From NCBI GenBank assembly GCA_025054615.1, contig JANWZO010000004.1, positions 1-44,981 of the forward strand: a DNA stretch of 44,981 nucleotides, in the 5' to 3' direction. The position numbers and the translations under genes were made by a program. The notes below the pieces were generated by a model. That model had not been told where the DNA came from, did no database searches, and saw only the letters and a program-made list of their open reading frames with translations. Origin of the DNA: Kiritimatiellia bacterium (GTDB lineage: Bacteria; Verrucomicrobiota; Kiritimatiellia; CAIVKH01). Each line of letters begins with the position of its first letter. Position 1 is the first letter of the stretch. Positions 10,983-34,000 of the stretch are shown here, one piece after another.

Positions 10983-11644
10983 TGCTGACTATGCGAATAC
11001 GTCTCGCATGTCTGCTGCTCATCATCGTCGGGACTGCCTATCAGCTTCATGCCGACGAGGCGGAGGAGACCGTCGATTCGCTCATCGCCCAAATTTACGA
11101 GATGTCGTCGAAGCTTCCGGAGCACTCGCGCGTCGCCGATCCGCGGCTGAGCAAGCTCGCTGCGCTGTATGAGCAGAATCGCCTCGAGGAACTCGTCATA
11201 GAGTCGCGTGAAATCATCCGTGCGGATCCGGCCAACCTCCCCGCGCGCTACTATGCCGCGACCGCCCTCATTTCGCTGCGGCGATATGAAGCCGCGCGCA
11301 CCCTCCTCGAGCAGTTGCTTGAATTGCACCCGCAGCATCCCGCGCTGCTGAACAATCTGGCCTGGCTCTACGCTGCTGCCACGGATCCGGCAATCCGCCA
11401 GCCGCAGCGGGCCCTCGAGCTGGCCCGCCGCGCGGTCGTCATTGAGCCCAACAGCTTCCACATTTGGAACACCCTCTCCGAGGCTTATTTCGTCAACCGT
11501 GATTTCGAGCGCGCCTTGCGGGCCGCGGAGGAAGCCCTTCGCCTCGCCGAACAGCAGAAGGCGCCCGCCGATCTAATCGCCAAATACATCAACCACGCTG
11601 AAAAATGCAAAGAAGCCCTCACCGCCTACTCGATATTCGAATAA
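10982..11644 (+). CDS. Exported tetratricopeptide repeat protein
   Basis: A 220-residue protein with a signal peptide (residues 4-23, MRIRLACLLLIIVGTAYQLHA) and a helical body of TPR-like units: about 70-103 (LPARYYAATALISLRRYEAA), 104-140 (PALLNNLAWLYAAA) and 150-185 (SFHIWNTLSEAYFVNRDFERAL). It begins with the A of the cdaR stop codon and overlaps the following lipoprotein gene by 40 bases, so translation is tightly linked. The role is unknown. TPR units usually mediate protein contacts, so a scaffold in the periplasm is a reasonable inference. Confidence 0.85.
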   Translation: MLTMRIRLACLLLIIVGTAYQLHADEAEETVDSLIAQIYEMSSKLPEHSRVADPRLSKLAALYEQNRLEELVIESREIIRADPANLPARYYAATALISLRRYEAARTLLEQLLELHPQHPALLNNLAWLYAAATDPAIRQPQRALELARRAVVIEPNSFHIWNTLSEAYFVNRDFERALRAAEEALRLAEQQKAPADLIAKYINHAEKCKEALTAYSIFE

Positions 11645-12294
11645 TCGTTGCAATCGCCGTCTTCATCTGCGCCGGGTGCGCGACCGCCGAGGTGGCTCAG
11701 GCGCCAGCCGAGCCGAAACCGCCCGCACTGGATCCCGGACGATGGAAATCCCTCGGAACGGTGTCCGTCGATCCGGATGTCCGCGCCGTCATCGCCACGG
11801 GCTTTGTCAACCAGGTAGAGGGCGCCATCGAACTGCTGATCTGCGGACCCGGCGGGAAAACCCACGAAAGCGTCTTCGTGATGCAGGCACATCCGATGGA
11901 CCTGCAGACAGCCCTCCTCCTGCTGAACCTCGAACCAGGACCTCCGCGCTCTGAATTGGGTGAGGGCCCGCCGCTGGGGCCCACCGTGGATATCTGGGTC
12001 CAGTGGGAAGACGATCAGGGTCGGACTGTCTCGCATCCCGCCGAAACGTTCGCCTACAACATCGAAACCAAAGAGGTCCTGCCCCATTCCGGCTGGGCCT
12101 TCACCGGTTCCGTGGTGATCGACGGCCAATTCAAGGCTCTCGCTGAAGAAAGTTTTGCCGCGACATACTGGGATCCGTGGGCCATTCTCAACATCCTCAA
12201 CGAAGTGGGGGCGAACGACGAAATCCTCGCCGTCAATCGTGCGCTGGTTCCGCCGCTTGGCACGCCGGTCCGTTTTGTGATCGTTCCCCGTTAG
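11605..12294 (+). CDS. YdjY-domain lipoprotein
   Basis: Predicted lipoprotein of 229 residues with lipobox ICAGC (Cys at about residue 24). The mature part matches what I know of YdjY-domain proteins: the GFVNQVEGAIELLICGPGGKTHES block, AHPMDLQTALLLLNLEPG, a beta strand with VDIWVQWEDD, GWAFTGS and a C-terminal PPLGTPVRFVI. The biochemical function of the family is unknown. It overlaps the preceding TPR gene by 40 bases and is followed by a TIGR03790 gene after 23 bases, suggesting that the three act together in the envelope. Confidence 0.88.
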   Translation: MQRSPHRLLDIRIIVAIAVFICAGCATAEVAQAPAEPKPPALDPGRWKSLGTVSVDPDVRAVIATGFVNQVEGAIELLICGPGGKTHESVFVMQAHPMDLQTALLLLNLEPGPPRSELGEGPPLGPTVDIWVQWEDDQGRTVSHPAETFAYNIETKEVLPHSGWAFTGSVVIDGQFKALAEESFAATYWDPWAILNILNEVGANDEILAVNRALVPPLGTPVRFVIVPR

Positions 12295-12317
12295 ATCTTA
12301 TCGCCACCGCTGCCATC

Positions 12318-13880
12318 ATGCGCCGCGTCGTGGCGATCCTTGCCTTCCTCCTCGCCGCCGCGGCCGCTGGCGCGGGCGATGACCGCGACGGCGTCGTGTT
12401 GTTGGTCAACCGCGCCGTCCCTGAGTCCCGCGCCCTCGCCGAGCTCTACTGCCAGCTTCGCGGCCTGCCGCTGGAGCGGATCTGCGAGCTTGAGCTGCCC
12501 CTCGATGAGCAGATCAGCCGCGAAGACTACGAACGACTTCTCCGCGACCCGCTGCTGGACTGGTTGAGGCGCGAGGGCTGGATCGATCAAATCAAACGGG
12601 ACCCTCGCCGCGTGCGCAGCCACGAATCCGGTTGGGTCACCGTCAAATCGCGCTTGCGCATCCTTTGCTCCTTTTACGGCGTTCCGATTCACATTCGCGA
12701 TACCCGCCCCTGGCTGCTGGAAAAAATCCGAAATCTTCTTACGCGATCCCCGCAACGGGACGAAGCCGCCGTCGATTCGGAACTCGCCCTCCTGTTGCAC
12801 AGCCCTTATGACATCGAAGGCCGCATCGGCAACCCATGCTTCGGCCAGCTCCGCTGGGACCATTCCGCCGCATCCGGGTTTGTCATCCTTGCGGCCCGAC
12901 TTGACGGTCCCGATCCCGACGTGGTCGAACGCATGATGCGCGACGCGGTCGACGCCGAACGCAACGGGTTGCATGGCCGGATGTATTTCGATCTGCGCCA
13001 GGCCGCATCAGACGAGTACAAGCTTGGGGATTTCTGGATCACCGAGGCCGCCGAACGATTTTCGCGAGAGGGTTATGACGTCGTCATCGAGCGCACGGAG
13101 CTTCTGTTCCGCGAGATCGACCCGATGGATCATGCAGCCCTCTACCTCGGGTGGTATGCCCCGCACGTAACCGGGCCGTTCGCGCGCACGGGCTTTGCGT
13201 TCCGGCCGGGCGCGATCGCCAACCATCTCCACTCCTTCAACGCCGCCCGCCTGCGGACTTACACGAACCACTGGGTCGGCCCTCTGTTGGCCGCCGGAGC
13301 CGCCGCAACGTGGGGTTCTGTGTCCGAGCCCTTTCTCGGTGCAACGCCGCACCTTCCCATCTTCGCCGACCGGCTCTGCCGGGGGGCGACGTTCGCGGAA
13401 AGTGTCTATCTCTCGCTGCCGTTCCTTTCTTGGCAGATTACCGTCATCGGCGACCCGCTCTACCGCCCGTTTGCCACTCCTCCCGACGAGCAGGCTCGGA
13501 ACCTCGAGACCGCCGGACGCCTGGAAGAGCTTGCATGGGTTGAGCTACGAAAGATCAATCGGCTTGTTCGCGAGGGCCGTCTTCTGATTGCGCTGGATCA
13601 GGCCCGCGCCGCCTTGCGACAGCGGGAAAGCGCGCCGCTACACGAGAAGGTCGCCAGTCTCCTCGCGACGAACGGACTGATCGACGAATCCATCCCCCAC
13701 TATGAGCGGGCTCTCGAACTGGCGACCGACGCCGGAGAGGCCCTTCGGATCGGGAGCGACTATCTGGCTCACCTTCGAGCGGCGGGCCAGGACAGCCTCG
13801 CGGAAGGCGTAGAAACCCGACTTCGAGAACGATGGCAAAATAGCCCCTTCCTCGGCCTGCTCGAGCCTGATGGCCGGTAA
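12318..13880 (+). CDS. TIGR03790 family protein
   Basis: A 520-residue exported protein. The signal peptide is MRRVVAILAFLLAAAAAGAG. The N-terminal region (VVLLVNRAVPESRALAELYC, LPLERICELELP) matches the TIGR03790 family of unknown function known from several environmental phyla. The C-terminal 130 residues are helical and contain a TPR-like unit (NGLIDESIPHYERALELA). I start at ATG 12318, the only start that gives a signal peptide; the frame is open upstream to 12177 inside the lipoprotein gene. The stop overlaps the tatD start by 11 bases. Family assignment is fairly sure; function is not known. Confidence 0.85.
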   Translation: MRRVVAILAFLLAAAAAGAGDDRDGVVLLVNRAVPESRALAELYCQLRGLPLERICELELPLDEQISREDYERLLRDPLLDWLRREGWIDQIKRDPRRVRSHESGWVTVKSRLRILCSFYGVPIHIRDTRPWLLEKIRNLLTRSPQRDEAAVDSELALLLHSPYDIEGRIGNPCFGQLRWDHSAASGFVILAARLDGPDPDVVERMMRDAVDAERNGLHGRMYFDLRQAASDEYKLGDFWITEAAERFSREGYDVVIERTELLFREIDPMDHAALYLGWYAPHVTGPFARTGFAFRPGAIANHLHSFNAARLRTYTNHWVGPLLAAGAAATWGSVSEPFLGATPHLPIFADRLCRGATFAESVYLSLPFLSWQITVIGDPLYRPFATPPDEQARNLETAGRLEELAWVELRKINRLVREGRLLIALDQARAALRQRESAPLHEKVASLLATNGLIDESIPHYERALELATDAGEALRIGSDYLAHLRAAGQDSLAEGVETRLRERWQNSPFLGLLEPDGR

Positions 13881-19525: not shown

Positions 19526-20878
19526 CTAATCTCGCCCCAAGCCGCGCCGGATTCGATCCCGATACCAAAATGCGCTATCTTTCGGAATCCGCTGAAGCGT
19601 CGACCAATCTACCCAGACAATTCCGAACCGCTGTCGATATCCGCATTGCCACTCAAAATTATCCAGAAGCGACCAGACGAAGTAACCGTCCAACGGCGCG
19701 CCGTCGCGCTTTGCACGCTCACAAGCGTCGATATGGCTCGCCAGATAATCGATGCGGCGCTGGTCCTTTACGCGGCGGTTTTCGTCCGGCCCGTCTCCGT
19801 AGCTGGCGCCGTTTTCTGTCACAAGCATCGATGTGGGGGCATAGTCGCGAGTGATTCGCATCAAGGTCTCGTATAGGCCCTGCGGATAGACCTCCCATCC
19901 CATCTCGGTCGGCTCGCCTTCCGGGGGCAGACTCCGAATCTCGCCTGGCGCATCCCCGGCGGCCACTCGGGCGCAGGTGTAGTAATTGACTCCCAGAAAA
20001 TCGATGGGGCGGCTAATTTCCTCAAAATCTCCAGCATGGACGAAGGGGAGAGGGCCGGCCGGAAGTCGACCATCTCGCCGGTATGCCGCGACGCGGTCCT
20101 CGGGATAGGCCCGCCTGAACAGCGGATCGAGATACCAACGGTTGAAATCGCCGTCGAGGGCGCGCGCGGCTTCGGCGTCCTCCGCGCGCGCAGAGGCGGG
20201 TATCACCCAGAGCTGGTTCAGCACGATCCCAACTTTTGCGCCGGGGACGTTCGCGCGTAGAATCGGCACAGCCCGTCCATGCGACAGCAACAGATGGTGC
20301 GCTGCCGCGAGCGCCGCCGCTGGATCGCGCACACCGGGCGCGTGAATTCCGTTCGAATAGCCAAGGGTCGCGATACACCAGGGCTCGTTGTGGGTTGTCC
20401 AGTATTTCACGCGGTCTCCGAGCGCTCGGCTCACCCGGTCCACATATCGGGCAAAGTCATCCACAATATGCCGGTTCCGCCACCCGCCCTCGTCCTCCAG
20501 GGCCTGGGGCAGATCCCAGTGGTAGAGCGTCACGAACGGCTGGATGCCCTGCTCTAGGAGCGCGTCGACCAGCCGATCATAAAACGCGATCCCGCGTGGC
20601 TCCTCGCGCCCGCGACCCTCAGGAAAAATTCGAGGCCATGCGATCGAAAAGCGGTATGCATTGACATCAAGCTCCGCCATCAGCGCGATGTCCTCTGCGT
20701 ACCGATGATAGTGGTCGCACGCCACATCGCCCGAATCCCCCCGTTCGACGGCCCCCGGCACACGGCAAAAGCGGTCCCAGATCGATTCCCCGCGACCGTC
20801 CTCCCGCACAGCGCCTTCGATTTGATAGGCCGACGTAGCGACCCCCCACCAGAATGTCTTGGGCGATGATTGGCTCAT
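19526..20878 (-). CDS. GH1 family beta-glucosidase
   Basis: A 450-residue family 1 glycoside hydrolase that releases terminal beta-linked glucose or related sugars. It opens with FWWGVATSAYQIEGA. The catalytic acid/base is Glu165 (THNEPW) and the nucleophile Glu355 (VTENGAS). The subsite motifs NAYRFSIAWPRIFPEG and YFVWSLLDNFEW are intact. No signal peptide is seen, so it is probably cytoplasmic and acts on imported oligosaccharides. GGAGAG precedes the ATG by about nine bases. Upstream lies the cluster of hairpins. It is convergent with the glycosyltransferase pair. Confidence 0.96.
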   Translation of the reverse strand: MSQSSPKTFWWGVATSAYQIEGAVREDGRGESIWDRFCRVPGAVERGDSGDVACDHYHRYAEDIALMAELDVNAYRFSIAWPRIFPEGRGREEPRGIAFYDRLVDALLEQGIQPFVTLYHWDLPQALEDEGGWRNRHIVDDFARYVDRVSRALGDRVKYWTTHNEPWCIATLGYSNGIHAPGVRDPAAALAAAHHLLLSHGRAVPILRANVPGAKVGIVLNQLWVIPASARAEDAEAARALDGDFNRWYLDPLFRRAYPEDRVAAYRRDGRLPAGPLPFVHAGDFEEISRPIDFLGVNYYTCARVAAGDAPGEIRSLPPEGEPTEMGWEVYPQGLYETLMRITRDYAPTSMLVTENGASYGDGPDENRRVKDQRRIDYLASHIDACERAKRDGAPLDGYFVWSLLDNFEWQCGYRQRFGIVWVDWSTLQRIPKDSAFWYRDRIRRGLGRD

Positions 20879-20993
20879 GCGTCGTGGCTCTCCATGCAGC
20901 CGTCAACATGTAGAGAATCTGAAATCAGCTCGCAACAGATCATTCCGATGCGTTGGCCGCGAGAAATCGATCAGCCAGAAATACGCCTCGGAG

Positions 20994-21222
20994 GGCGCCG
21001 TTTCACCGGCGACGATTTCAATTCCCGTGGAGGGCCCAGTTCGACCCGCGCCTTCTGGGGACAGGGTGGAACCTGTCCCTCCAGATGCGGACCCTATGTG
21101 GAGGGCGCGGTTCCACCCGCGCCGGTTGTGGAGGGCGCCGTTCCACCGCCGCCATCGTGGATTCGATTTCCGGACGCCGTGGAAGGCGTCCCTCCAACGG
21201 TCGGGTTGGAACCCGACCCGTT
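20994..21222. repeat. Cluster of seven short hairpins with a near-constant hexamer loop
   Basis: Seven units of about 20-26 bases lie between the lamin-tail gene and the GH1 gene. Each has a 6-8 bp stem around the loop TTCCAC, or its complement GTGGAA: A) 20994-21013, loop TTTCAC, 6 of 7 pairs; B) about 21027-21053, loop TTCGAC, degenerate; C) 21058-21079, loop GTGGAA, 8 perfect pairs; D) 21104-21123, loop TTCCAC, 7 perfect; E) 21134-21153, loop TTCCAC, 6 of 7; F) 21172-21191, loop GTGGAA, 7 perfect; G) 21199-21218, loop TTGGAA, 7 perfect. Most units are preceded by TGGAGG in the orientation where the loop reads TTCCAC. Stem sequences differ between units yet remain self-complementary. A, B, D and E lie in one orientation; C, F and G in the other. 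No T-run follows any of them. Confidence 0.85.
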
Positions 21223-21250
21223 CTAGGTCGATGTGGGGGCCTTGGCGCGG

Positions 21251-24001
21251 TCAGGGATTCTCGAGCTCGACGCTGACGCGGTAGGCACGGAAGTTTGTCA
21301 CCACGCCGTCGGGCAGGGAAATGTTGCCGCCGGTGCCAGCAACGGGGCCGGCAATGGATGTCCAGAGCTGAGTCCCGGTAAGTTGTTGCGCGGCCCACAG
21401 CCGATACAGACGGCCGGTCACCGAAGGTGTTACGATGAACCGTGATGCAGCATTGGTGATCGCGATGCTCCGCAGGAAATTCGTCGCGCCACCTGGCGGA
21501 ACCGGTACCGTGCCGGCGATGAATTCCTCCAGATTCGAGAAACCATCGCCATCGTCATCGGCCTGGTCCCCTGTGTAAGATCCCACAGAGCCCCAGTACG
21601 CAACGATGTATGCGGTCTGCGCGGGGCTGTAGGACGATCCCGCGGGGATCGTTTGGCAATCGTTGAGAAGTCCGCGTGAATGCGGCCGATTCGTCGACCA
21701 CGAGAACGCGCCGTAGTTTGTGCCACTCCCACAGAGCTGGAGCGAGTGGCCGACCGGGCCGGTGGTTGGCTGCGCGACACCAATATCCGTGGAGGTCAGT
21801 CCAGCGGCGGGCCCGTTGGTGACGGTGAAAAACCCTTCGTAACTAATAAATTGCAGCACTTGTGTGGCCCCGTAGACGAGCGCGATGCCGTCCGGGCCAT
21901 TTTGGATATTCGAAATCGCAAACCATAGTGTTCCGAACCCGTTGGACTGATCCGGGATCACGCCGGAAAGATTCGTTGAGGCATAATGGCAGAAGCAGGC
22001 GCCGCCGCCGTCGTAGAGCCACAGCGAATACCCGGTAAGATTGACTCCCGCAGGTCCGGCGATTTCCACGCCCTCGTCCACATCAACACCGTTATTGTCG
22101 TAATGGAGCTCGTTGATCCACACATTGAGGGAGGGGGCCGGACCAAAGGTATCGTCATCCGTAATCGTGAGAGTGAATGTGGCGGGGGATCCAATGCCGC
22201 CGCCGACAACGTTCGTAAGCGTGAGGATCACGGTTTCATTAGTTTCGACCAGGGCGTCATTGTTGATTGTGATGACGAAAAATGCCGAGGTGGTGGTCCC
22301 GATAAGCGAGAAGTTGGTTGAATCGATTGTATAATCGTTGCCAGAACCTAGGGTGGCCGTGCCGCTCAATGCGATCGAACCGCTAAGGTTTCCTGAAGGT
22401 TGGGTCTTGAATACAGCGACCGTGTACGCGCCGCCGGCTTCTCCGATAGATGCCGAAGCAAGCGCGAAATAGACATTGGTTGCCGGCCCTCCGCCGCAGG
22501 GTACGATATTCTGGCCCACATTAAGGATCCCGCGGCTGACCGTGCCCGTGACCCAGGTAAATGCGGCATAATTTGTACCGGCGCCGGCGAGTTGAAGCGT
22601 ATCGGAAATGCCATTCTGTGTGCCGACGTTTTGAGACGTTACGCCATCCGCGGGTCCACCAGACCCTGTCATGGGGCCCTCATAGCTGATGAATTGCACC
22701 AGCGTCGTCGTGCCGCCAACGACCTTGGCCAGCGCAATGCCGTCCGGAGCACCGTTTTGCAGATTCGGCGTATCGAATGCCACGGCGCCAAACCCGCAAC
22801 CTTCGTCGGGAATCGTCCCCGAGCAAAAAACGTTGCTGTAGGGCATATTCCCCGATCCATTGTACAGCACTAGCAGATAGTTACTGAGATCCAGACCTGC
22901 CGGACCTGCCAGCTCAACGAATTCGTTAGAATCCGTGCCTGGCGGGTCATAGTTGAACTCGTTAATCCATGGCTCGCCCGCGGGCGGCGGGGCAAAATCG
23001 TTGTCGTTGATCGTCAATGTAAATGTCGAGGGCGTCCCAACAGTGGCGCCGGTGACGTTTGTAATCGTCAAAACGACGGTTTCGGAAGATTCGACAATGG
23101 AATCATCATTGATTGTGATCTCTATGGCAATCGAGGTTACGGCCCCGATGAGAGAAAAATTCGTTGTGCTGATGGTGTAGTCATTTCCGGATCCCAAGGT
23201 CGCCGTCCCACCGATCGAGAGGGATGCGCTGACGTTTCCGGACGGTTGGGTCTTGTAAACCAGCACGGTATACGTACCGCTTCCCTCGCTGACGACGTCT
23301 CCCGAGACACCGAACTGAACGGTGGTTGCGGACCCTCCGCCGCGCAGGCTAAGGATGAATGCCTGATTATTCGCGTTGTTCCATGTGCCGATGCTGCCGG
23401 CGGCACGGTCGCCAAGGGCATTGTTTCCATCATAATCGGCAAGAGCCTGGTTCGGAGTCATCGCCTCCGCGGATTCATTCATACCCGAATCTCCAGTAAC
23501 TGTCCGGAGCTTGGGCGAGGGCGACGACGCAAAAAATGTGTTCGTTCCAGCGACCCCGGACGCGAACGTGTGGATGGCGCCGGTTGTGCCAGACCGGCCC
23601 GATCCCGCGCCCTTGATTTGGACAATTTCATGCGTCGCAATGTCGAAGGTGCCCGATTCCGCGGCAAAATAGGTTAGATTGGAGAGGCCGACATCGAGGT
23701 TGTAGTCCCCGGAGCCGACTGTCGTATCTGCAGCCGAATCGTCCTTGCGAAGAACGATGATGGTGCCAGCAGGAAGGCTGGACCACAGCGCGTTGCTCGT
23801 GAACGAATAGCCACCTCCGTTGTCGTTGCCGCCGCTTGACGAATAATCTTTCAGGATCATGCCGCGCATGTCGAGGCCGTCCTGAATGACCAGCAATTCA
23901 ACGATGTCCGGCGATGCATTTCGAAATTCGTTGATCACCACAGACTGCGCCACTGCATTTACAGTCGCGATCAAGGCGAAACATCCGATGAAAATCCTCA
24001 T
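21251..24001 (-). CDS. Secreted lamin-tail / Calx-beta repeat protein
   Basis: A 916-residue exported protein with signal peptide MRIFIGCFALIATVNAVAQS. It contains three lamin-tail-domain-like units, each opening with an INEF/INEL strand (about residues 22-160, 350-500 and 625-780). Two Calx-beta-like units (about 235-340 and 510-620) alternate with them, each with SGNDYTI and ending in an acidic DND or DDD. A calcium-loop segment DQADDDGDGFSNLEEF lies near residue 815, a short C-terminal beta region follows, and no LPXTG or PEP-CTERM signal is visible. GGAGG precedes the ATG by eight bases. It follows the two large surface-protein genes upstream on the same strand after 89 bases. Likely function is surface or matrix attachment, an inference from domain types. 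Confidence 0.87.
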   Translation of the reverse strand: MRIFIGCFALIATVNAVAQSVVINEFRNASPDIVELLVIQDGLDMRGMILKDYSSSGGNDNGGGYSFTSNALWSSLPAGTIIVLRKDDSAADTTVGSGDYNLDVGLSNLTYFAAESGTFDIATHEIVQIKGAGSGRSGTTGAIHTFASGVAGTNTFFASSPSPKLRTVTGDSGMNESAEAMTPNQALADYDGNNALGDRAAGSIGTWNNANNQAFILSLRGGGSATTVQFGVSGDVVSEGSGTYTVLVYKTQPSGNVSASLSIGGTATLGSGNDYTISTTNFSLIGAVTSIAIEITINDDSIVESSETVVLTITNVTGATVGTPSTFTLTINDNDFAPPPAGEPWINEFNYDPPGTDSNEFVELAGPAGLDLSNYLLVLYNGSGNMPYSNVFCSGTIPDEGCGFGAVAFDTPNLQNGAPDGIALAKVVGGTTTLVQFISYEGPMTGSGGPADGVTSQNVGTQNGISDTLQLAGAGTNYAAFTWVTGTVSRGILNVGQNIVPCGGGPATNVYFALASASIGEAGGAYTVAVFKTQPSGNLSGSIALSGTATLGSGNDYTIDSTNFSLIGTTTSAFFVITINNDALVETNETVILTLTNVVGGGIGSPATFTLTITDDDTFGPAPSLNVWINELHYDNNGVDVDEGVEIAGPAGVNLTGYSLWLYDGGGACFCHYASTNLSGVIPDQSNGFGTLWFAISNIQNGPDGIALVYGATQVLQFISYEGFFTVTNGPAAGLTSTDIGVAQPTTGPVGHSLQLCGSGTNYGAFSWSTNRPHSRGLLNDCQTIPAGSSYSPAQTAYIVAYWGSVGSYTGDQADDDGDGFSNLEEFIAGTVPVPPGGATNFLRSIAITNAASRFIVTPSVTGRLYRLWAAQQLTGTQLWTSIAGPVAGTGGNISLPDGVVTNFRAYRVSVELENP

Positions 24002-24090: not shown

Positions 24091-25041
24091 TCATTCGACC
24101 AGCCGCACACGCAACACGCCTGGAGCGAGGTTGGTGACAATCGTTTGCGCAACCGCTCCCGTCGCGGTCAACTCCTCATTAACATTCGTGAAGTAAAAAT
24201 CTGCTGGATCGCCTGCGAATTCGGCGTGTTGCAACTGATAGACTTTGCCGGCCACGGCATCCCACTCGACGATTATCGCGTCAGAATCCTCAACCGGATT
24301 GAGGCGGACCATTTGTAGGTGAGAAGCCGGATCCAGCGGATCCGTGCCCGCACGGACTTCATCGTGGTCACTCACACGGTCTCCATCGCTGTCCGGATTG
24401 TCTTTGTCGGTTCCGTAGCTTTTCTCCCATGAGTTGTGGAGGCCGTCCCAATCGTCATCTCCCGTATCGAGCGGCCTGTCGATCTGCGTAACGTCGATGA
24501 CAAACACGCCATAGTGTGACACCGGGTTGGTGAAGACTGTGCTATCGGCATAAAATGAGGATTCCTCGCGCGTTGGCCTGTTGAAGATACGGGCGAAGAT
24601 ACGCGCGCCGTTTGAACGATCGATCAGCAGCGCGCCCGACACTTTTCCGAGGGCGCCAGCGCCGGGATCCACGCCGGCTCCGATGTACGTGACGGCCAGT
24701 ACCTCATTGCTGGGGTGTGGCGAACCATCCGTTGACGGCGGGTAGATTCCAGCGTCTGCAGTCAGAATCTCCACACGAGCTCCGGGTTCCTCCAATGTGC
24801 CAGGAAGAACGTTCCCAAATTCGTCGACCATTGAGGCCGCAGTGTCGTACGCGAGCGGAGCGTTGAGACCCCCCCAAGCGGTCGAAGCGAACAGACCGCC
24901 AAGAAATGCCACGATGCAGGTCAGCAGGAATAGGGGGCGGATCGCTAGGGAGTATCGCGGCCCAGTGGGAACAGAAAACGGGTTCGCCGACTCCATGCGC
25001 GGCATATCCCAGCAATCCGATAACATGATCATGCTCTTCAT
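24091..25041 (-). CDS. Exported protein with thrombospondin-type-3-like calcium loops
   Basis: A 316-residue protein. A hydrophobic segment at about residues 34-56 (PLFLLTCIVAFLGGLFASTAW) serves as a long signal peptide or anchor. A central region of unknown fold is followed by acidic loops DTGDDDWDGLHNSWEKSYGT and DNPDSDGDRVSDHDEVRAGTDP, typical of TSP3-like calcium repeats. A C-terminal beta-rich region has VEWDAVAGKVYQLQHA, similar to segments seen in other secreted PVC-type proteins. I start at ATG 25041, which overlaps the stop of the giant gene in ATGA; the frame is open to 25089 but this overlap is the better evidence. Function is unknown; it is likely a partner of the giant protein. 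Confidence 0.78.
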   Translation of the reverse strand: MKSMIMLSDCWDMPRMESANPFSVPTGPRYSLAIRPLFLLTCIVAFLGGLFASTAWGGLNAPLAYDTAASMVDEFGNVLPGTLEEPGARVEILTADAGIYPPSTDGSPHPSNEVLAVTYIGAGVDPGAGALGKVSGALLIDRSNGARIFARIFNRPTREESSFYADSTVFTNPVSHYGVFVIDVTQIDRPLDTGDDDWDGLHNSWEKSYGTDKDNPDSDGDRVSDHDEVRAGTDPLDPASHLQMVRLNPVEDSDAIIVEWDAVAGKVYQLQHAEFAGDPADFYFTNVNEELTATGAVAQTIVTNLAPGVLRVRLVE

Positions 25042-28000
25042 GGTGAGAAATTCTTCGTGGGCGCGCTGTAGGTGGGCGCGTTGGTCCAAATGACAACCGA
25101 CGGTTTGCGCCGGACAATGATGATGGCATCGTCCGGTTCAATGATCTGGCTCATCGCGCTGGGCATGGTGTTCGGCGAGCCGCTTGTGGCGAGCCGCCAT
25201 GGCGCGTTCGAATGCACGGCGAGTGTGCTCAGCCAAATGCGCATCCTCGGTTGCGTCAGAGATCCCTGGCTGAGTCCATTCGTCGGCTGATTATTGAGAA
25301 TGCGGATCTCGTCCGCGAAATTCGGATGCACGCCACCCTGGAAGCCACTGAACTGTTTGACGAAATTGGAAACGGGAATCCGTTCAGCCATTTGCTGGCT
25401 CAACACGTGAAACTCCGGCGCGTTGGTGTTTGACACGGCGGGGATGGTGCGCACGAGCGCCTGCGTGGCCAAGCGACCTACCAGCACGAGGTTCGTCGGC
25501 AAAGCATTGGTCGGCAGCTCAATGAGGAAACCCTGGCCGAGCGGAACCCGCTTGTTGTTGGCGTTGCCCGTTCCGCCGAGCTGATAGATCCAACCAGCAC
25601 TGCTGGAGAGCCAAACGATGCAGGTTGGCGCAGAACCTTGATGATTGATTGCGTTGGAGTGCGCGAACCAGGATATCCGGGTCGACGATGCGAAGGTCGT
25701 CCCGGCGGGCAGCGTATTGGTGCCGAAGACATAGGCGACCGTGCTTTCCATTTCATTCGTGGTAGCCGGATCTGGGAAGCTGAACAGCGAGTACCAATTT
25801 TCGCCCGGATTCATCCGCAAAGCCTTGGCCACATAAATCTCTGCGCTTCCAACCCGAGGATTCTGGTTGGTCTTCCAACGATCCTGTCGGGCGACGCGAT
25901 AGAAGCGATACGTGGTTCCGGTCAGCAGCCCGGGCGCCACGCGGTTGGTGCCTCCGAAATCGGACAATCGAGGGCGATTGGTATATTGAAGGAACTGCCA
26001 CTGGCTGGTCAGGGTGTTGCGGAAGCCGTGCGGCGAATCGATAAAAATGACGTCGTAGTCGCGTAACACTGACTCATTGGTAGGACCGGTCCACTTCAAA
26101 TCCAGGCCCAGATTCGCGCGGGTCAAGCCCTGAGTGACGATGAACCGGTCCGTGTTCCCAATCACGCTGGTGGCCAAGCCGATGTTCCCAGCGAGATCAC
26201 GACCCTGAATTTCGATGCGATAATACGTGTCGAATTGCAGATTGGAGAGGACGAGATTGGTAAATGCCCAGTTTCCGAGGGCGTTCGAATAGCCGGCGGA
26301 AGTCCGGGTCAGAGTGATTGTTAGGGCATTTGGCGCTGGCGTTCCATTCGTATCGAGGACCTCGTAATACCGCACTATGTAGGAATCCCATGGGGACAGG
26401 GCGGAGCTATCACTCGAGCGCCATCCCGCTGCCTGAGCTTCATTGGTGCCGCCCGGCCGCCATTCCACCTTGATCTCGGAGCTTTCATCGATGCTTGGAT
26501 CAAAGAGATATCCGGCGGCCGCGTCCGTTGCGCGCAGCTGGGTTGCGCGCGGCGGAGGGCTGGTATCGACGCGCACCACGAGCGGTTTGAGATTGCCGAT
26601 GGCGCGGTCCGCAGGACGGTCATTGTCATCATCCACGGCGAAGACGAAGCCGGTAATGATGCCCTCCTGGTGCAGGATGCTGGCCGTGTGACTTGTCACC
26701 GAGGCCGAAATTCCGCTACCCGCGTTGGTGGTGGAGGGAACGGTCGTGCCCACGGCAGGCATCACAAGTCGGTATTCGTCAACCCCAGAAAAATCATCGA
26801 CAGCGGCGGTCCAGCGAATCGTCAATTGATTCGTGCTTACCCACTCGGGGTTCGGCGTGATGTTGATGTCATCCATGTAGACCTGCACGCCCGTTGCCGC
26901 GCGCACCAGGCGGAGCGTGACCACGCCGTCCACATTTACATTCCAGCTCAGCATTTCGAATTCGGGATTCCGCGCGCCGACGAGGTGAGTTCCCAGATTT
27001 GTCCACGTGGAGCCATCGAGGCGTTCGAGCCAGACCGCGACGTCGTTCGTGGGTTCTTCCGGACCGAAGCGACCCGCAAAGACGGTGAAGGTTCCCGGAT
27101 CTCTGACCGGGGGCAATTGCAGCCAGGTGTTCGTCGCAGCGGCGTTGGTGAGCAATCCGATTCGACGTGTTCCCGAGACTTTCGGGTTTAGCGAACCCCA
27201 AAGAACTTCTCCGCTTGCAATGTACGTGCCGTTGCTGACCGTGTTCGTCCACGAACCACTAAATGAAACCGTGTTGGTCCATCCGGTGGCCGGCTCAAAG
27301 GTTTCAAGGAAATTGGTCTCGTTGCCCGTCGTGCCCTCAGCCACTGCGCTTGCGATCACAGGTCCGCGAGCATCGTCGTCCGCGATTCGAACGAATCCTA
27401 CCTGATGGGAGATCAGCGTCATCCGGTCGTTCGGCCGATCATCATCCGTATCCGGGATCGTGACCCACACCGGCCGGGTCGTCGTCGCCAGTGGATTGAG
27501 ATGGATGTTGGTGGCCATCAACGAGCCGATGTACGAGTAGCCGAACACGCCTCCACCAAAACTCCAGATATTCGTCAGGACCTGATTGGTGGCAGTCTGG
27601 GCCGATGAGAGGCTGGCATTGTAGTTCGACACGTTGCCGACCATCACCGACCCGATGCTGAAACTCATGACCGTATTGGTACTGCCCGTGTTACCGCGGC
27701 TGACCCCGCTATCCACATCCCGGGCACCAAAAGCGAACTGGAGACCGATGGATCCCGATGCCGCCAAATCTCCATCCGATAGAGTCCAAACCGTGTTCGT
27801 ACCGGTTCCACTTCGCCGGTCGAGGCTTCGCATAGTTTCCCCTGCGGCGAATGTCCCGCCATTGGTCAACACGACGAAGGGGCGGGCGGCGGCATTCGGG
27901 AATGTCAAATCCGCCAATACGGGGGTGTTTGTATCATCGTCGATAACGCGCCAGATGCCGAAGAGGGTGTTGCTGCGGTAGGCCGCATCCGACGGGCGAT

Positions 28001-31000
28001 CGTTATCCAAATCGGCCATCGTCGCCCGAATGGGCCGATTGCTTTTTCCATCCGCGTGGAGGTCTCCAATCTGGCTGTACGAGATGGATGTAAATTGCCA
28101 GACACTCGTGGACGCCGCCCCCGTCGTGCTTGCGCTGCTGAGTCCGGCCTGATATGCCGCTGTGTTGTTCGTGGCCAAACCGCCAACCGTCACGGCCATG
28201 TTCGTCCCATCGAAGGCCGTCCCGCGCGCCAAGCCGCTGTAGGTGTCGTACGCGTTGAAACTGAATCGAATCGGGTTTGTTGATCCGACCGTCGCCAGTG
28301 CGCCATCTGTTACTTCGTAATAGGTGATGTACCCCGCATTGAATTGGAAATTATCAAACCGATTGTTGCCGAGTCCGGATACAGCATTCGTTCCGAATGT
28401 GATGCGGAATGAAATCTGCGGCGCGCCATTTAGATTGGTATACGAGGACAGATCAAACGTGTGAGTGCCCCATGTGTCGAGGGCCGGTGCCCAATTAGCA
28501 TTGACGACGACGAAGGGGCCCGACCCAACAGCAACCTCAATCCGATTGGAGTCGTATCCGGTGCTGGAGCGCCGCGCCGCGAAACTCACCACGAGGTCCT
28601 TCCGGCCCGACATGTCGAGATCGAAACGGAGGGACCGCCCGATATTCCCCGATCCCTGAACGGTAAGGTCATCGCCCGCAGGATCATTCTCGTAGGAATT
28701 GAGGGACGTGCCTGTATTAGAATTGGTCGAGATCAACGTGTCGACCAATGTGCCCGAGCCGTGGCTGACGGCCATACGCGAGCCGGCATTATTGAAATTC
28801 CACGCCGCAACGAGCTCCGTGCGGTTCGTCGAAGCGAGTGACTGTGTTCCAATCATCAGCGCGACACCGCCAGGTCCAACGATGGGCGGATCCGGATCGT
28901 CATCATAGACGAGGACGGGAAGCCGGTTGGTCCGATACTGGGTATCGTTCGATCGATCATTGTCCATGTCAGCAACCGCCGTGAGCGCTGTAACCGTGCC
29001 CAGGGTGATGTTGGAATATGTCCCAGCTGGCGCACTCACTCGGTTGGTCACCGGGGTCTTGGTGCCATCCGCAAAATTGACGGGGAAAATGTTCGAAACG
29101 ATTACAGACCCGTTTGTGTTCAGAAGCATGAAATACGGCGCGTGGCCGAAGGGCTTATTCGTCGCGATGAGGCCGGCGTCCAGATCGCGGACCACGTTTG
29201 TCACGCGGTAACCGCCGGCCAGCACCTGGGCGTCCGACAGCTCGGGCGAATTCCAGTCGAAATCGCCCGGTCCAATGACGTTGAACGAATAATTCGTGAT
29301 GTCCAGATATCCGCTAGGGAAAGACTGCCAGTTGTTCGAATTGCTAATCTGGCTCAGAAGATACGATGCGGTGCCTGTGGTCGGCCCGATGTAGCGCGCG
29401 TTGACAGGATTCGGGGCGATCGGCACGCTCACCGCATTGACCCCATTCGTCAGCCCGCGATAAAGCATGGAATTCTGATTATTCGTGCCGCCGCCCGGAT
29501 AGGCGAGGTTGGTGAACCAACCGGGTCCGAGATTCAGCGCATATAGGAACGTGATATTATCCGGATCGGTGGTGGGACTGGCCGTGCCATTATACTGGTA
29601 AACCACAATCTGGTCCCCGGCGTTATTGATGTTCGTAATCGTAAGTTCCACAACCGTACCCACGTCCATGTTTCCGGATGCAACCCAGGTATTGGTGTGG
29701 AATTCATTGAGGTTATACCAGTTGTTCGAATTGGCATCCCAGCCGCAGTCGGTGAAGAGCAAACGGGTTCCCGCCGGGAAAGGTGCAAGTACAACGAAGG
29801 AGAATCTCTCCTGAGTGTGTGCGCCATTCAACCCGATGAGCGCAACCGCGCCCGGCAACAGATTCGAAGAACCGGAGCCCCCCACGCCATCAAGGGTGAA
29901 TTCGAAAAGTTCCGGTGGATTGGGGTCGTCGTCTTTCACAAAAAATTGCAAAGCGGTATTCACCGTCAACGCGCGCCAGAGCGGAATCGGGTCCGCGCCG
30001 TTGGGCGCGTTCGTCACGCCACCACCCATATTGTTGTTCTCGGCGCTCAGCGTGATGTAGAACGTGTCGTCGAACGATGAATTCGTAATCGAAAATGCCT
30101 GCCGCTGATATGTCGTCACGACCGTGGCGCCGTTCACACCGATCCAGTTCGTAAACGGCGCGTCAAACCCGAAACTCTGAAATTGCGACCCGGTACCGGC
30201 GAGGACCACCGGGTCGAAATTCGGATTCACGCGCCCGGCGCGCGAGCCGATGTTGAGAGAGCCGTTGGCGTTGGTCAGGAAGACGCCGAACTGATTGCTC
30301 CACAAAACGGCAATGTCCAGAGGATCAGATGTATTCGCCAAATCGGCATCCGTAACTGTGATGTCGTTCGATGCGCCCTGTGGATTGAGTGATATATTAT
30401 AATTAGTACCGACGTAGAGTAACCGCGGCACCGGTCCATTTGCCATCGCCTGAAATTGGGCTTCTCCATCTCGACGGGTAACCTGATACCAGTTGGTGCC
30501 CACTCGAATTTCGTCGTAGTACACATGCCCGATTTGCACGCTCGACGCGGCACCGATCGCCAAACGAACGCCTGTCAAGCTTGTGATATGCCCAAAGCTC
30601 TGCGTGGTTGTGACTTGCCAGTACCCCTTCGGTTCCTCGGCAATGGAATCACTGCCGAGTTTGTACGATGTCGCGCTTAGCTCGCGGGTCGCGAAATCGT
30701 ATTTCGCCACGATCACATAATCGTTGCCGACCCCGTGCAGAAGGTTGTTTGACGACACCGCATTCGCGGAGCTCTCGGCAATCCCCAGGGCTTGATTCGC
30801 GGCGGCCACCTTGCCGATAAACGCTTTTTCCGTCGAACCCTGCATGAGCCGGATGCCCGCAAACTTGTCGGTGCCGTTGTATTGGTAGTTTTGGATCCAG
30901 GCGAAGTAGACGGTTCCGTTCGTGAACGGCTGCGCAAACGCCCTCGTCGCCAAGACCGTACGACCATTGACATCGCCGTATAGGACCACTTTGTTCCCCG

Positions 31001-34000
31001 TGGGAGGCGGGTAGGAGGAATTGGTCACGTGGAAGGAGCCAGACGAGTAGTCCGCATAAGGATCGCCGCCCAGAATCCAGAAGTTCGACCATCCGGAACC
31101 GCCCCCACCTCCGTTCAGGGTGCCGGAGCTGGATGCGAATCCGTCGTAGATCACGGGCCCCACGCCCGGCGGCGAGATCCCGAGGAGGTCTTCCCAGGTC
31201 GTCGCAACTCGAAGTTCATCAAAGTAGGTCGTACCCGGCGTCCCGGATCCCGTTGTGCCTGCGACGAGCCGCACAGCATTGATCTGGCCAACGAGATTGC
31301 TTGCCTTGGTGACGCTAATGTCCCACGTCGCGGGCTCGTTGGTCGGTACGGAGTCGGTGCCAATCTTGAACGCGCTGGCGACAGCCTGGCCGGCTGCCCA
31401 ATCATACCGGAGAATGACAAGATAATCCTGCCCGAATCCGTTGTTCATGACTCGCGTAGACGAGGTGCCGTCGATGCCTAGCCTCAAATCTGCGGTGGAC
31501 ACCTCTCCGGCAAACAGTCGTTCTGTCGTATTTGAAAACAGTTGTACGCCGACATATTTGCCAGAACCCGCGTATTCGAAATTCACGATATATCCCACGT
31601 AAATTCGCCCGTCTGAAATCGGCGTGGCAAGGCGGCGGCTGATTCCCAAGGTTTCACCATCCAGCGGGCTGACAGCGATCTTGTTGGCGCGCGGAGTCGG
31701 GTAGTCCGCAATCGCGGAGAAACTCAGATTCGAAACGGAGAATCGATTCGTGTCGCCGACCCAGATGTTCGTGCCCCACCCCGATCCTCCGCCTAAGTTG
31801 AACGCTTGTACACCTGAGGTGTAGGCAAACACTTCGACGATCTCGCTGACCCCATAAATCCCGACAGTTGCCGAGGCCGAAACAACTGAGGAGTAATGGT
31901 TGCTGAAAATCGAGTGAAACGCGTAGTGATTCGTGCTGCCCGGTCGCACCACGTGCTGGAGGTTCGAGCCCGCACCCTTATAAATAACCCGCGTGTGGCC
32001 GGAAATCACATCTCCGACGTTGTATAACGTCCCATTGATCGGCGCGGCGGGCGCGTTTGTTTCGCGGTGCAAAATCAGCACATCAAACGCCGGAGATTTT
32101 GTCCATCCGAGGCGGACGAATTCGTTCCCGTCATTCGTAACGCCCGCCGAAAGGACGGATGTAATCGCGTTCACCGTGAAAACCACATCAAACAGCTGCG
32201 GACTATTGGAGGCGGTATTGGGACCGACCCCGGTGTTGAACACAACGACCCGCCCCGTGTGAACGCCTGCCGCGAGATTCGTCGCCCACAGCGTCAACGA
32301 ATGGGACTGTGAGTTACTCTCCGCTATGGAGACACCGGCGGTCGGGCTGACCACCAGCCATGCCGGCGCGTTGTTTGTAATCTGGTACGACAGCAACCGC
32401 TGACCGACATTGGTGACTGCAAACGACAACGTAACCGCGCCGCCGATAGTGCTTGTAGCTGCCAAGTTGCCTCCAATTCCGATGCCCGGCGGATTGTAGG
32501 CAAGGGTCGTTACCGATTGAGTATCGGAATTCGGACTCACACAGGTTCCTCCACCAACGGCCCGGACTCTGTAATAATATGTGACGCCATCGGTGAGCCC
32601 CGTCACAAGTGCACTCGTGCCTGTGACGACGCGATTGGAATATCCTGGAACAAAAGCAGATAGGATCGAATCACCAGTTAGCATTACATCATCGATTCGA
32701 AATTCCACTGAGGAAGAGGATTGAAACCGGATCCGCATATTCGTTCCGGCCATGGAAGCGGGAACATCATTCGTGCGATAGTACCAAGTTGCAGTACCGG
32801 TTCCCGTCGGCAACGATATCGTTCCGCAGGAGACCCAGTCCGTCCCATTCGTACTCGCTTCAAGCGCCAAGGAACTTCCATCTTCTGCATTCGTCGACTT
32901 TCGTACGCCGAATCGAATCCGCATATTCGAAAGCCCCGATGAGTCGATCCCAGCGATGATGAAATTTTCGCTAGGTGCATTAAGCATGACATTAAATCCG
33001 CCTGACGCAGTTGGATAGCCGGAGGAGGGAAACGTATTCCGCATATCGCCGCTTCCGCTCATGGTCAGAGCCACGTTATCGAATCGGTTGTTGCTCTCGT
33101 GAGTGGCGATGCTGTCTCCATTTGCCCCCGAAGTCCCCATCGATTCGTAAAAATTCGTGACCGAAACAGATGCGGAAAACGTCGAAGAGGTTGCCACATC
33201 GAGTCGATAGGAAGTAGCTCCCGCCAGGGCAAGCCAGTTTGCCGTGAAATTCGTGTAACCGATGCCGCTTGCGGCTGTCACAGTTGGCCCCGCCGTGTAA
33301 CACGGCGTGGTGAGGGAGAACTCGGAACCGTAGCCTGTGCCCGCGCTGTTTTGCGCAAAGGCACGATAATAATAGGTGACGCCCGGCACCAAATTCGTCA
33401 TGATCGCAGTGAATACTCCGGTCCCTGCACCATTGGTGGTTTGAGCTCCAGGTACAGTCGGCCCGGGCGAGGTGCTCCATACGACACCGCGATTGGTCAC
33501 GCTTGCGCCGCCGTCGGAGGTCACGTTCCCGCCGCTCGTTGCCCATGTCAAATTTGTGTCTGAAGCCTCCGTCGTTGTGACTATCGGCGGGGATGCGCCG
33601 GGCGGAGAATACACGAGCTGAAGATTGGTCCCCGACTGGGCCACGCTGAAGGATCCGCCAAAAGATGGCGTGAATCCAGCCGTATTGACAGCAAAGCGGG
33701 ACGGATCGAAACCAGAAATGCTGGATCCATTCATGATGGTCCAAGCATAGGACCCGGCGCTGTTGAAGCCGGCGGGATTCCCGTTCAAGTAAATCGTGAA
33801 GGTTCCCGACGGGGGAACAGTCAGCACACCGGAACCCGTTACCACGTCCCAATGAGTTCCTGGCGAGCCGGACACATTTGAAATGTCGAACGTATAACCC
33901 CCTCCGCTTTGAAGCGTGATCGATCCCGCGGTCAGGACACCCGTGCTGCCCGCCGAGTTACCTGGGCTGACGAGTCCGCCGATCGTCAAATTTCCAACCG

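Follow-up and report, generated by a model that had tools for sequence, protein, structure and literature searches.

The window, by which we mean the whole analysed stretch of 44,981 nucleotides from a Kiritimatiellia bacterium, contains an intergenic gap of 372 bp that is bordered on one side by a GH1 beta-glucosidase-like gene, at its start, and on the other by a gene with a Calx-beta domain, at its stop. This gap holds seven 25-nt units, all intergenic, which span positions 20989-21223 and are built from TGGAG, a 7-nt arm beginning with GG, the 6-nt loop TTCCAC and a complementary 7-nt arm. The features are listed below, each unit being written as head, arm, loop and arm.

19526-20878, minus strand: GH1 beta-glucosidase-like gene, its start bordering the array gap
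20879-21250: intergenic gap with the array (372 bp)
20989-21013, plus strand: unit 1, decayed; CGGAG-GGCGCCG-TTTCAC-CGGCGAC; 6 of 7 pairs
21028-21052, plus strand: unit 2, decayed; TGGAG-GGCCCAG-TTCGAC-CCGCGCC; 5 of 7 pairs
21059-21083, minus strand: unit 3; TGGAG-GGACAGG-TTCCAC-CCTGTCC; 7 of 7 pairs (8 bp counting the next base)
21099-21123, plus strand: unit 4; TGGAG-GGCGCGG-TTCCAC-CCGCGCC; 7 of 7 pairs
21129-21153, plus strand: unit 5; TGGAG-GGCGCCG-TTCCAC-CGCCGCC; 6 of 7 pairs
21172-21196, minus strand: unit 6; TGGAG-GGACGCC-TTCCAC-GGCGTCC; 7 of 7 pairs
21199-21223, minus strand: unit 7, head lost; GAACG-GGTCGGG-TTCCAA-CCCGACC; 7 of 7 pairs
21251-24001, minus strand: Calx-beta-domain gene, its stop bordering the array gap

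Three of the units combine a flawless head and loop with seven pairs and the remaining ones are decayed. An earlier note on this DNA had described seven hairpins in both orientations, and our analysis confirmed this cluster: all four stems quoted there occur in the window, with units 1, 2, 4 and 5 on the plus and units 3, 6 and 7 on the minus strand. The TGGAGG said to precede most units does so, with the exceptions of unit 1 (CGGAG) and of unit 7, in which the head is lost. Predicted folds of four representative units as single-stranded DNA gave the expected hairpin at -7.6 to -9.7 kcal/mol. Neither terminator-like sites (a GC hairpin with a T-run) nor promoter-like sites were found at the array, in agreement with the earlier statement that it is not a terminator. 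A search of the array against Rfam returned nothing above the gathering score, the match to mir-667 (19.5 bits, gathering score 70) being a chance one, and inspection of the unit sequences showed the CGTC tag of CGTC-tagged palindromes (RPE) to be absent from the unit ends. Elsewhere in the window, positions 25038-35993 on the minus strand form one uninterrupted reading frame of 3651 aa.

The unit family and its stems

The genome of the window (2.48 Mb in 51 contigs) contains 40 exact copies of the skeleton TGGAGGG-N5-TTCCAC and none of the reversed control pattern, and about 60 units were recovered with a covariance model. The possibilities raised beforehand, that the pattern occurs only here or as often as in shuffled sequence, thus do not apply. 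In the stretches sampled for placement, 43 of 44 units were intergenic where 87% of the same DNA was called coding by a simple home-made gene caller based on GC by codon position. Across the class the full skeleton was present in 42 of 346 genomes, many of those surveyed being metagenome bins, with a patchy distribution and controls of about zero; it was not found in seven other genomes of the family to which the window's genome belongs. Carriers among the matches listed include Kiritimatiellae, Lentisphaerae and Opitutia, and further bins labelled Candidatus Sumerlaeia, Deltaproteobacteria and Anaerolineales. Carriage of the units by viruses was considered and rejected, with only 2 of 22 skeleton matches in IMG/VR fully paired. 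A tandem array of a similar alternating hairpin, GGCCGAG-TTCCAC-CTCGGCC, was seen in Halopseudomonas pertucinogena (L117:2423-2730) and is probably unrelated.

It had been proposed that the structure of the units is kept and not the sequence of their stems, and this is borne out by two lines of evidence. Among 31 distinct units of the window's genome, six of the seven pairs vary on both sides and pairing is kept in 88.9% of cells. The covariation score was 0.589, compared with 0.158 for shuffled alignments (none of 500 shuffles was as high) and at most 0.142 for slid ones. An unbiased test, in which the search pattern placed no constraint on the five inner stem bases, gave full pairing at all five positions in 90 of 156 skeleton matches listed from public genomes, with 27 different stems; the chance expectation is about 0.1%. 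Over all loci collected we counted 57 stems in 253 unit contexts. Head and loop are far more constant. When loop lengths of 3-12 nt were tried on perfect TGGAGG-headed hairpins of the collected loci, all 202 had a loop of 6 nt, which read TTCCAC in 162 and was of the CTCC type in about 20, and the head of perfect TTCCAC hairpins was TGGAG in 245 of 263. A pseudoknot between head and loop (TGGA with TCCA, GGAG with CTCC) was considered and dropped as not general, since neither GTAG-headed sister REPs nor GGCCCC loops keep such pairing.

The units occur singly, as inverted pairs of the kind called REPINs and in clustered mosaics like BIMEs; as short, multi-copy and mainly intergenic hairpin repeats they share the general description of REPs. 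They are scattered without a gene in arrays of one to seven units and are thus not the ends of IS200/IS605 elements, in which subterminal hairpins bound one autonomous transposase gene. Neighbouring units follow a strict rule. Among TTCCAC units no more than 60 bp apart, none of 67 opposite-strand neighbours shared a stem, compared to 13 of 37 same-strand neighbours (Fisher p 3e-7, with loci treated as independent). When units of the window's own genome were compared at the third stem position, those with C and those with A or T were oppositely oriented in 50 of 53 cases. Equal stems on opposite strands would form one palindrome of about 50 nt, and selection against it is the likeliest cause of the unlike stems, to which the inheritance of composite blocks also contributes. 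The earlier suggestion that units are created repeatedly remains unproven: about 7-9 stem classes recur in the window's genome, so that copying within classes together with divergence of the stems fits equally well.

RAYT genes with units in related genomes

A search with Pfam PF01797 revealed no unit-linked transposase, and none whatever in the unit-rich genome G028. The resulting picture of unit-rich genomes without a RAYT was overturned for the relatives by a RAYT of the NF047646 type that itself carries units. In genome G022 (contig C41) a unit pair lies within an open Y1-transposase gene, the N-terminus of which is also coded through units, and sister hairpins follow the stop. The protein scored 12.6 bits with PF01797 (cut-off 23) versus 86.9 bits with the NCBIfam model NF047646 (REP-associated tyrosine transposase). 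Used as a query it led to unit-carrying RAYT genes in G051 (C60), G103 (C2) and G141 (C7), and an HMM search added one of 220 aa with six units on the SKYG50 contig L162, which was binned with Chloroflexota, perhaps wrongly. RAYTs with TTCCAC units in or beside the gene are thus present in five related genomes. The advice of the earlier note to look for a linked RAYT was sound, and a place for the hairpins outside REP/BIME biology found no support, given these genes and the REPIN- and BIME-like arrangement of the units; its interpretation is in this sense only partly supported.

The partner belongs to the TnpA_REP family of HUH Y1 transposases: all ten aligned RAYTs matched NF047646, their HxH and Tyr positions are invariant, and the best PDB match of the profile was 4er8 (annotated as TnpArep / TnpA_REP, E 3.4e-16). 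A tree was built from 48 RAYTs with callable flanking hairpins, the G141 gene, whose nearest relative is L162 at 74% identity, being left out. GGAG-flanked and GT(A/G)G-flanked genes were strongly clustered in this tree, with 6 label changes for all groups together versus 16.9 when shuffled. Within a 100/99 clade in which 13 of 15 genes are GGAG-flanked, three RAYTs carrying TTCCAC units (L162, L242 and L302) make up a supported subclade. The G051 gene (L258) has mixed TTCCAC and CTCCGT units and groups with CTCCGT genes, so the loop type can change within a locus. CTCCGT-loop (CTCYGY) sister units flank sister-clade RAYTs and reach up to 198 copies per genome (in G048, G057, G014 and other relatives). 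The presence of a RAYT alone does not correlate with units, since some genomes, such as G045, have RAYTs of this family and no TTCCAC units.

Several RAYT loci show further peculiarities. In five genes (L162:4309-4428, L095:3835-3886, L258 at about 1810-1950, L247 and L248) extra segments containing hairpin units lie just before LWQRDFWDTQ, and that of L258 consists of three tandem 39-nt steps (a unit plus 14 nt) repeating DGVEPVPPGGPNP. A frame of 1396 aa in G141 (L304, C7:~11000-13400) runs from an N6-methylase-like protein (NPPY motif) into repeated N-terminal halves of the RAYT and has about 17 units in it, a pattern resembling amplification between repeats. The RAYT L308 (G337:C64:12003-14719) is flanked by alternating GGAG units with another fixed loop, GGCCCC or GGCCTC.

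Presence and absence of units can be compared between two species of one genus, where an orthologous RAYT locus carries a 52-bp inverted pair (stems TCGCG/ACGGC) in G022 and lacks it in G045, both flanks being homologous. The aconitase gene of G022 (C60, L093:5081-5132) also contains an inverted unit pair in frame, reading GGYTVYL-GGSRSTATADGVEAVPP-EKMSIYDA, an insert of 14 residues relative to 2b3x. Together with the unit-carrying transposase genes, this difference at the RAYT locus suggests that the units are mobilised by the RAYT.

Neither query recovered the body of a cognate RAYT from the genome of the window, although matches with E values up to 1 were admitted, and G028 and G011, which also hold units, likewise yielded no cognate RAYT. 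Two copies of the RAYT 5' flank are present in the window's genome: positions 1-119 of contig C20 match the L162 RAYT locus at 99% identity over its 5' flank, its start codon and its first unit, and positions 650-715 of contig C33 match the flank and start codon at 93%. Several contigs of this genome end in or near unit arrays. Taking the missing body, the two flank copies and these contig ends together, the units look orphaned, the RAYT having been lost with relics left behind, or else the gene is unassembled; with no cognate body found, the unit population is probably no longer mobile. A Y1-transposase fragment at the end of contig C6 was rejected as a partner, being of another type and with no units nearby; there the contig ends inside the transposase (L031, 151525-151710), preceded by the repeat GTAAAGGGGTCAGTTCTTG.

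Interpretation and comparison with REP systems

We regard the cluster as a BIME-like mosaic of a GGAG-headed REP variant, the units of which would be moved by a RAYT-type HUH/Y1 enzyme, and assign this reading a probability of roughly 85%. A unit in single-stranded DNA, for example the lagging-strand template, would fold into a 7-bp hairpin with the TTCCAC loop and GGAG at its 5' foot. The enzyme, of RAYT (TnpA_REP) type, would read foot and loop and not the letters of the stem, would cut beside the hairpin and would put units back, singly or as inverted pairs, mostly between genes. As only the pairing of the stem would matter, stems might drift by compensatory change, and inverted neighbours would keep unlike stems, probably since identical ones form one long perfect palindrome and not two hairpins. 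More tentatively, and at somewhat less than even odds, a RAYT lineage of Kiritimatiellae and neighbours might have exchanged the GT(A/G)G guide of REPs for GGAG and might read foot and loop only, which would leave stems as free, mutually orthogonal barcodes with inverted partners kept unlike against long palindromes. The unit might then also serve as a harmless in-frame linker of Gly, Thr, Ser and Pro that can live inside genes, including its own transposase.

It is unlikely that another single-strand DNA or repair process spreads the units, with RAYT genes as nothing but tolerant landing sites. The unit-rich genomes G000 (that of the window), G028 and G011 without a cognate RAYT would fit such a process, as would the aconitase, which indicates that coding sites beyond RAYTs accept units. 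However, RAYT loci are the densest unit sites in several genomes (all five full skeletons of G051, about 17 units in G141, the six of L162), units also occupy the immediate 5' and 3' flanks of the RAYT there, which is the defining arrangement of REPtrons, and sister-clade RAYTs carry sister hairpins with other loops. Less probable still is that selection maintains the hairpins site by site as functional elements of RNA or DNA, such as mRNA stabilisers, protein-binding loops or attenuators. A conserved structure with varying sequence, and an array placed downstream of one gene and upstream of its neighbour, would suit this explanation, but both orientations occur in one gap, number, order and neighbouring genes vary between loci, terminator-like and promoter-like sites and an Rfam family were not found, and the distribution is patchy even within the family; secondary roles of the hairpins may nevertheless exist. 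Chance is a negligible explanation even though short GC hairpins arise easily in GC-rich intergenic DNA, given the empty reversed-pattern controls, the excess of full pairing among the matches listed and the absence of units from 40 first-order Markov resamples of the window, which itself has 6 units at the set threshold.

Among known systems, the GGAG-headed REP variant in many respects resembles the group-3-type REPtrons of Stenotrophomonas and Marinomonas (PMC8266576, PMC2817692), with four fixed bases at the 5' foot, GC-rich perfect stems that change without losing their pairing, BIME-like mosaics, a RAYT flanked by inverted REPs and, presumably here too, loop positions read by the enzyme. 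Described REPs have a GT(A/G)G foot; in Stenotrophomonas they are perfect palindromes that leave 2-4 bases unpaired in the middle and show complementary changes (PMC2817692), and experiments on group-3 RAYTs showed that these enzymes depend on an intact stem and on certain positions of the loop (PMC8266576). The TTCCAC family departs from these systems in its GGAG foot, which stands in place of GT(A/G)G, and in its loop of 6 nt where theirs has 2-4. Several classes of stem also coexist in a genome, units can be read through in frame within the RAYT gene, and the window's genome yielded no cognate RAYT. In a previous survey of 66 REP families the foot was always GTAG or GTGG, and the loop had between 2 and 5 nt (PMC6006769). 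GTAG- and CGTC-tagged palindromes share with the units their size, stems of 6-9 bp and head or tail dimers, whereas the head of the TTCCAC units is neither GTAG nor CGTC; GTAG families were reported from the PVC superphylum, in Opitutus terrae, and the GTAG-3 dimers of Enterobacteriaceae are formed exclusively by unlike elements (PMC3733652). The CTCCGT-loop units of the same class have the same GGAG head, stem length and loop length; unlike the TTCCAC units they have another loop and identical-stem inverted pairs occur among them (G048, G057). Like the E. coli REP/BIME elements (y, z1, z2), the TTCCAC units form intergenic mosaics of unlike units on opposite strands (heterodimers). REPs of E. 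coli need a stem bulge and GTAG, whereas the stems of the TTCCAC units are perfect, without a bulge, and headed by GGAG.

The family is almost certainly a GGAG-headed variant of REP and not a canonical REP, because the logic of REPs is matched while the foot is (T)GGAG and not GT(A/G)G; for this reason we do not file it with the canonical GT(A/G)G REPs, though it would work like one. In the literature searched, GGAG was not combined with RAYT or REP, and no such repeats were described in Kiritimatiellota. RAYT searches that use Pfam PF01797 alone miss the NF047646-type lineage with TTCCAC units. The finding extends REP/RAYT biology, in a class that has received little study, to a GGAG guide with a fixed 6-nt loop. 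It also provides natural stem-swap data on which parts of a REP matter, and the strict rule of unlike stems in inverted pairs hints, in a form that can be tested, at how REPINs escape the instability of palindromes.
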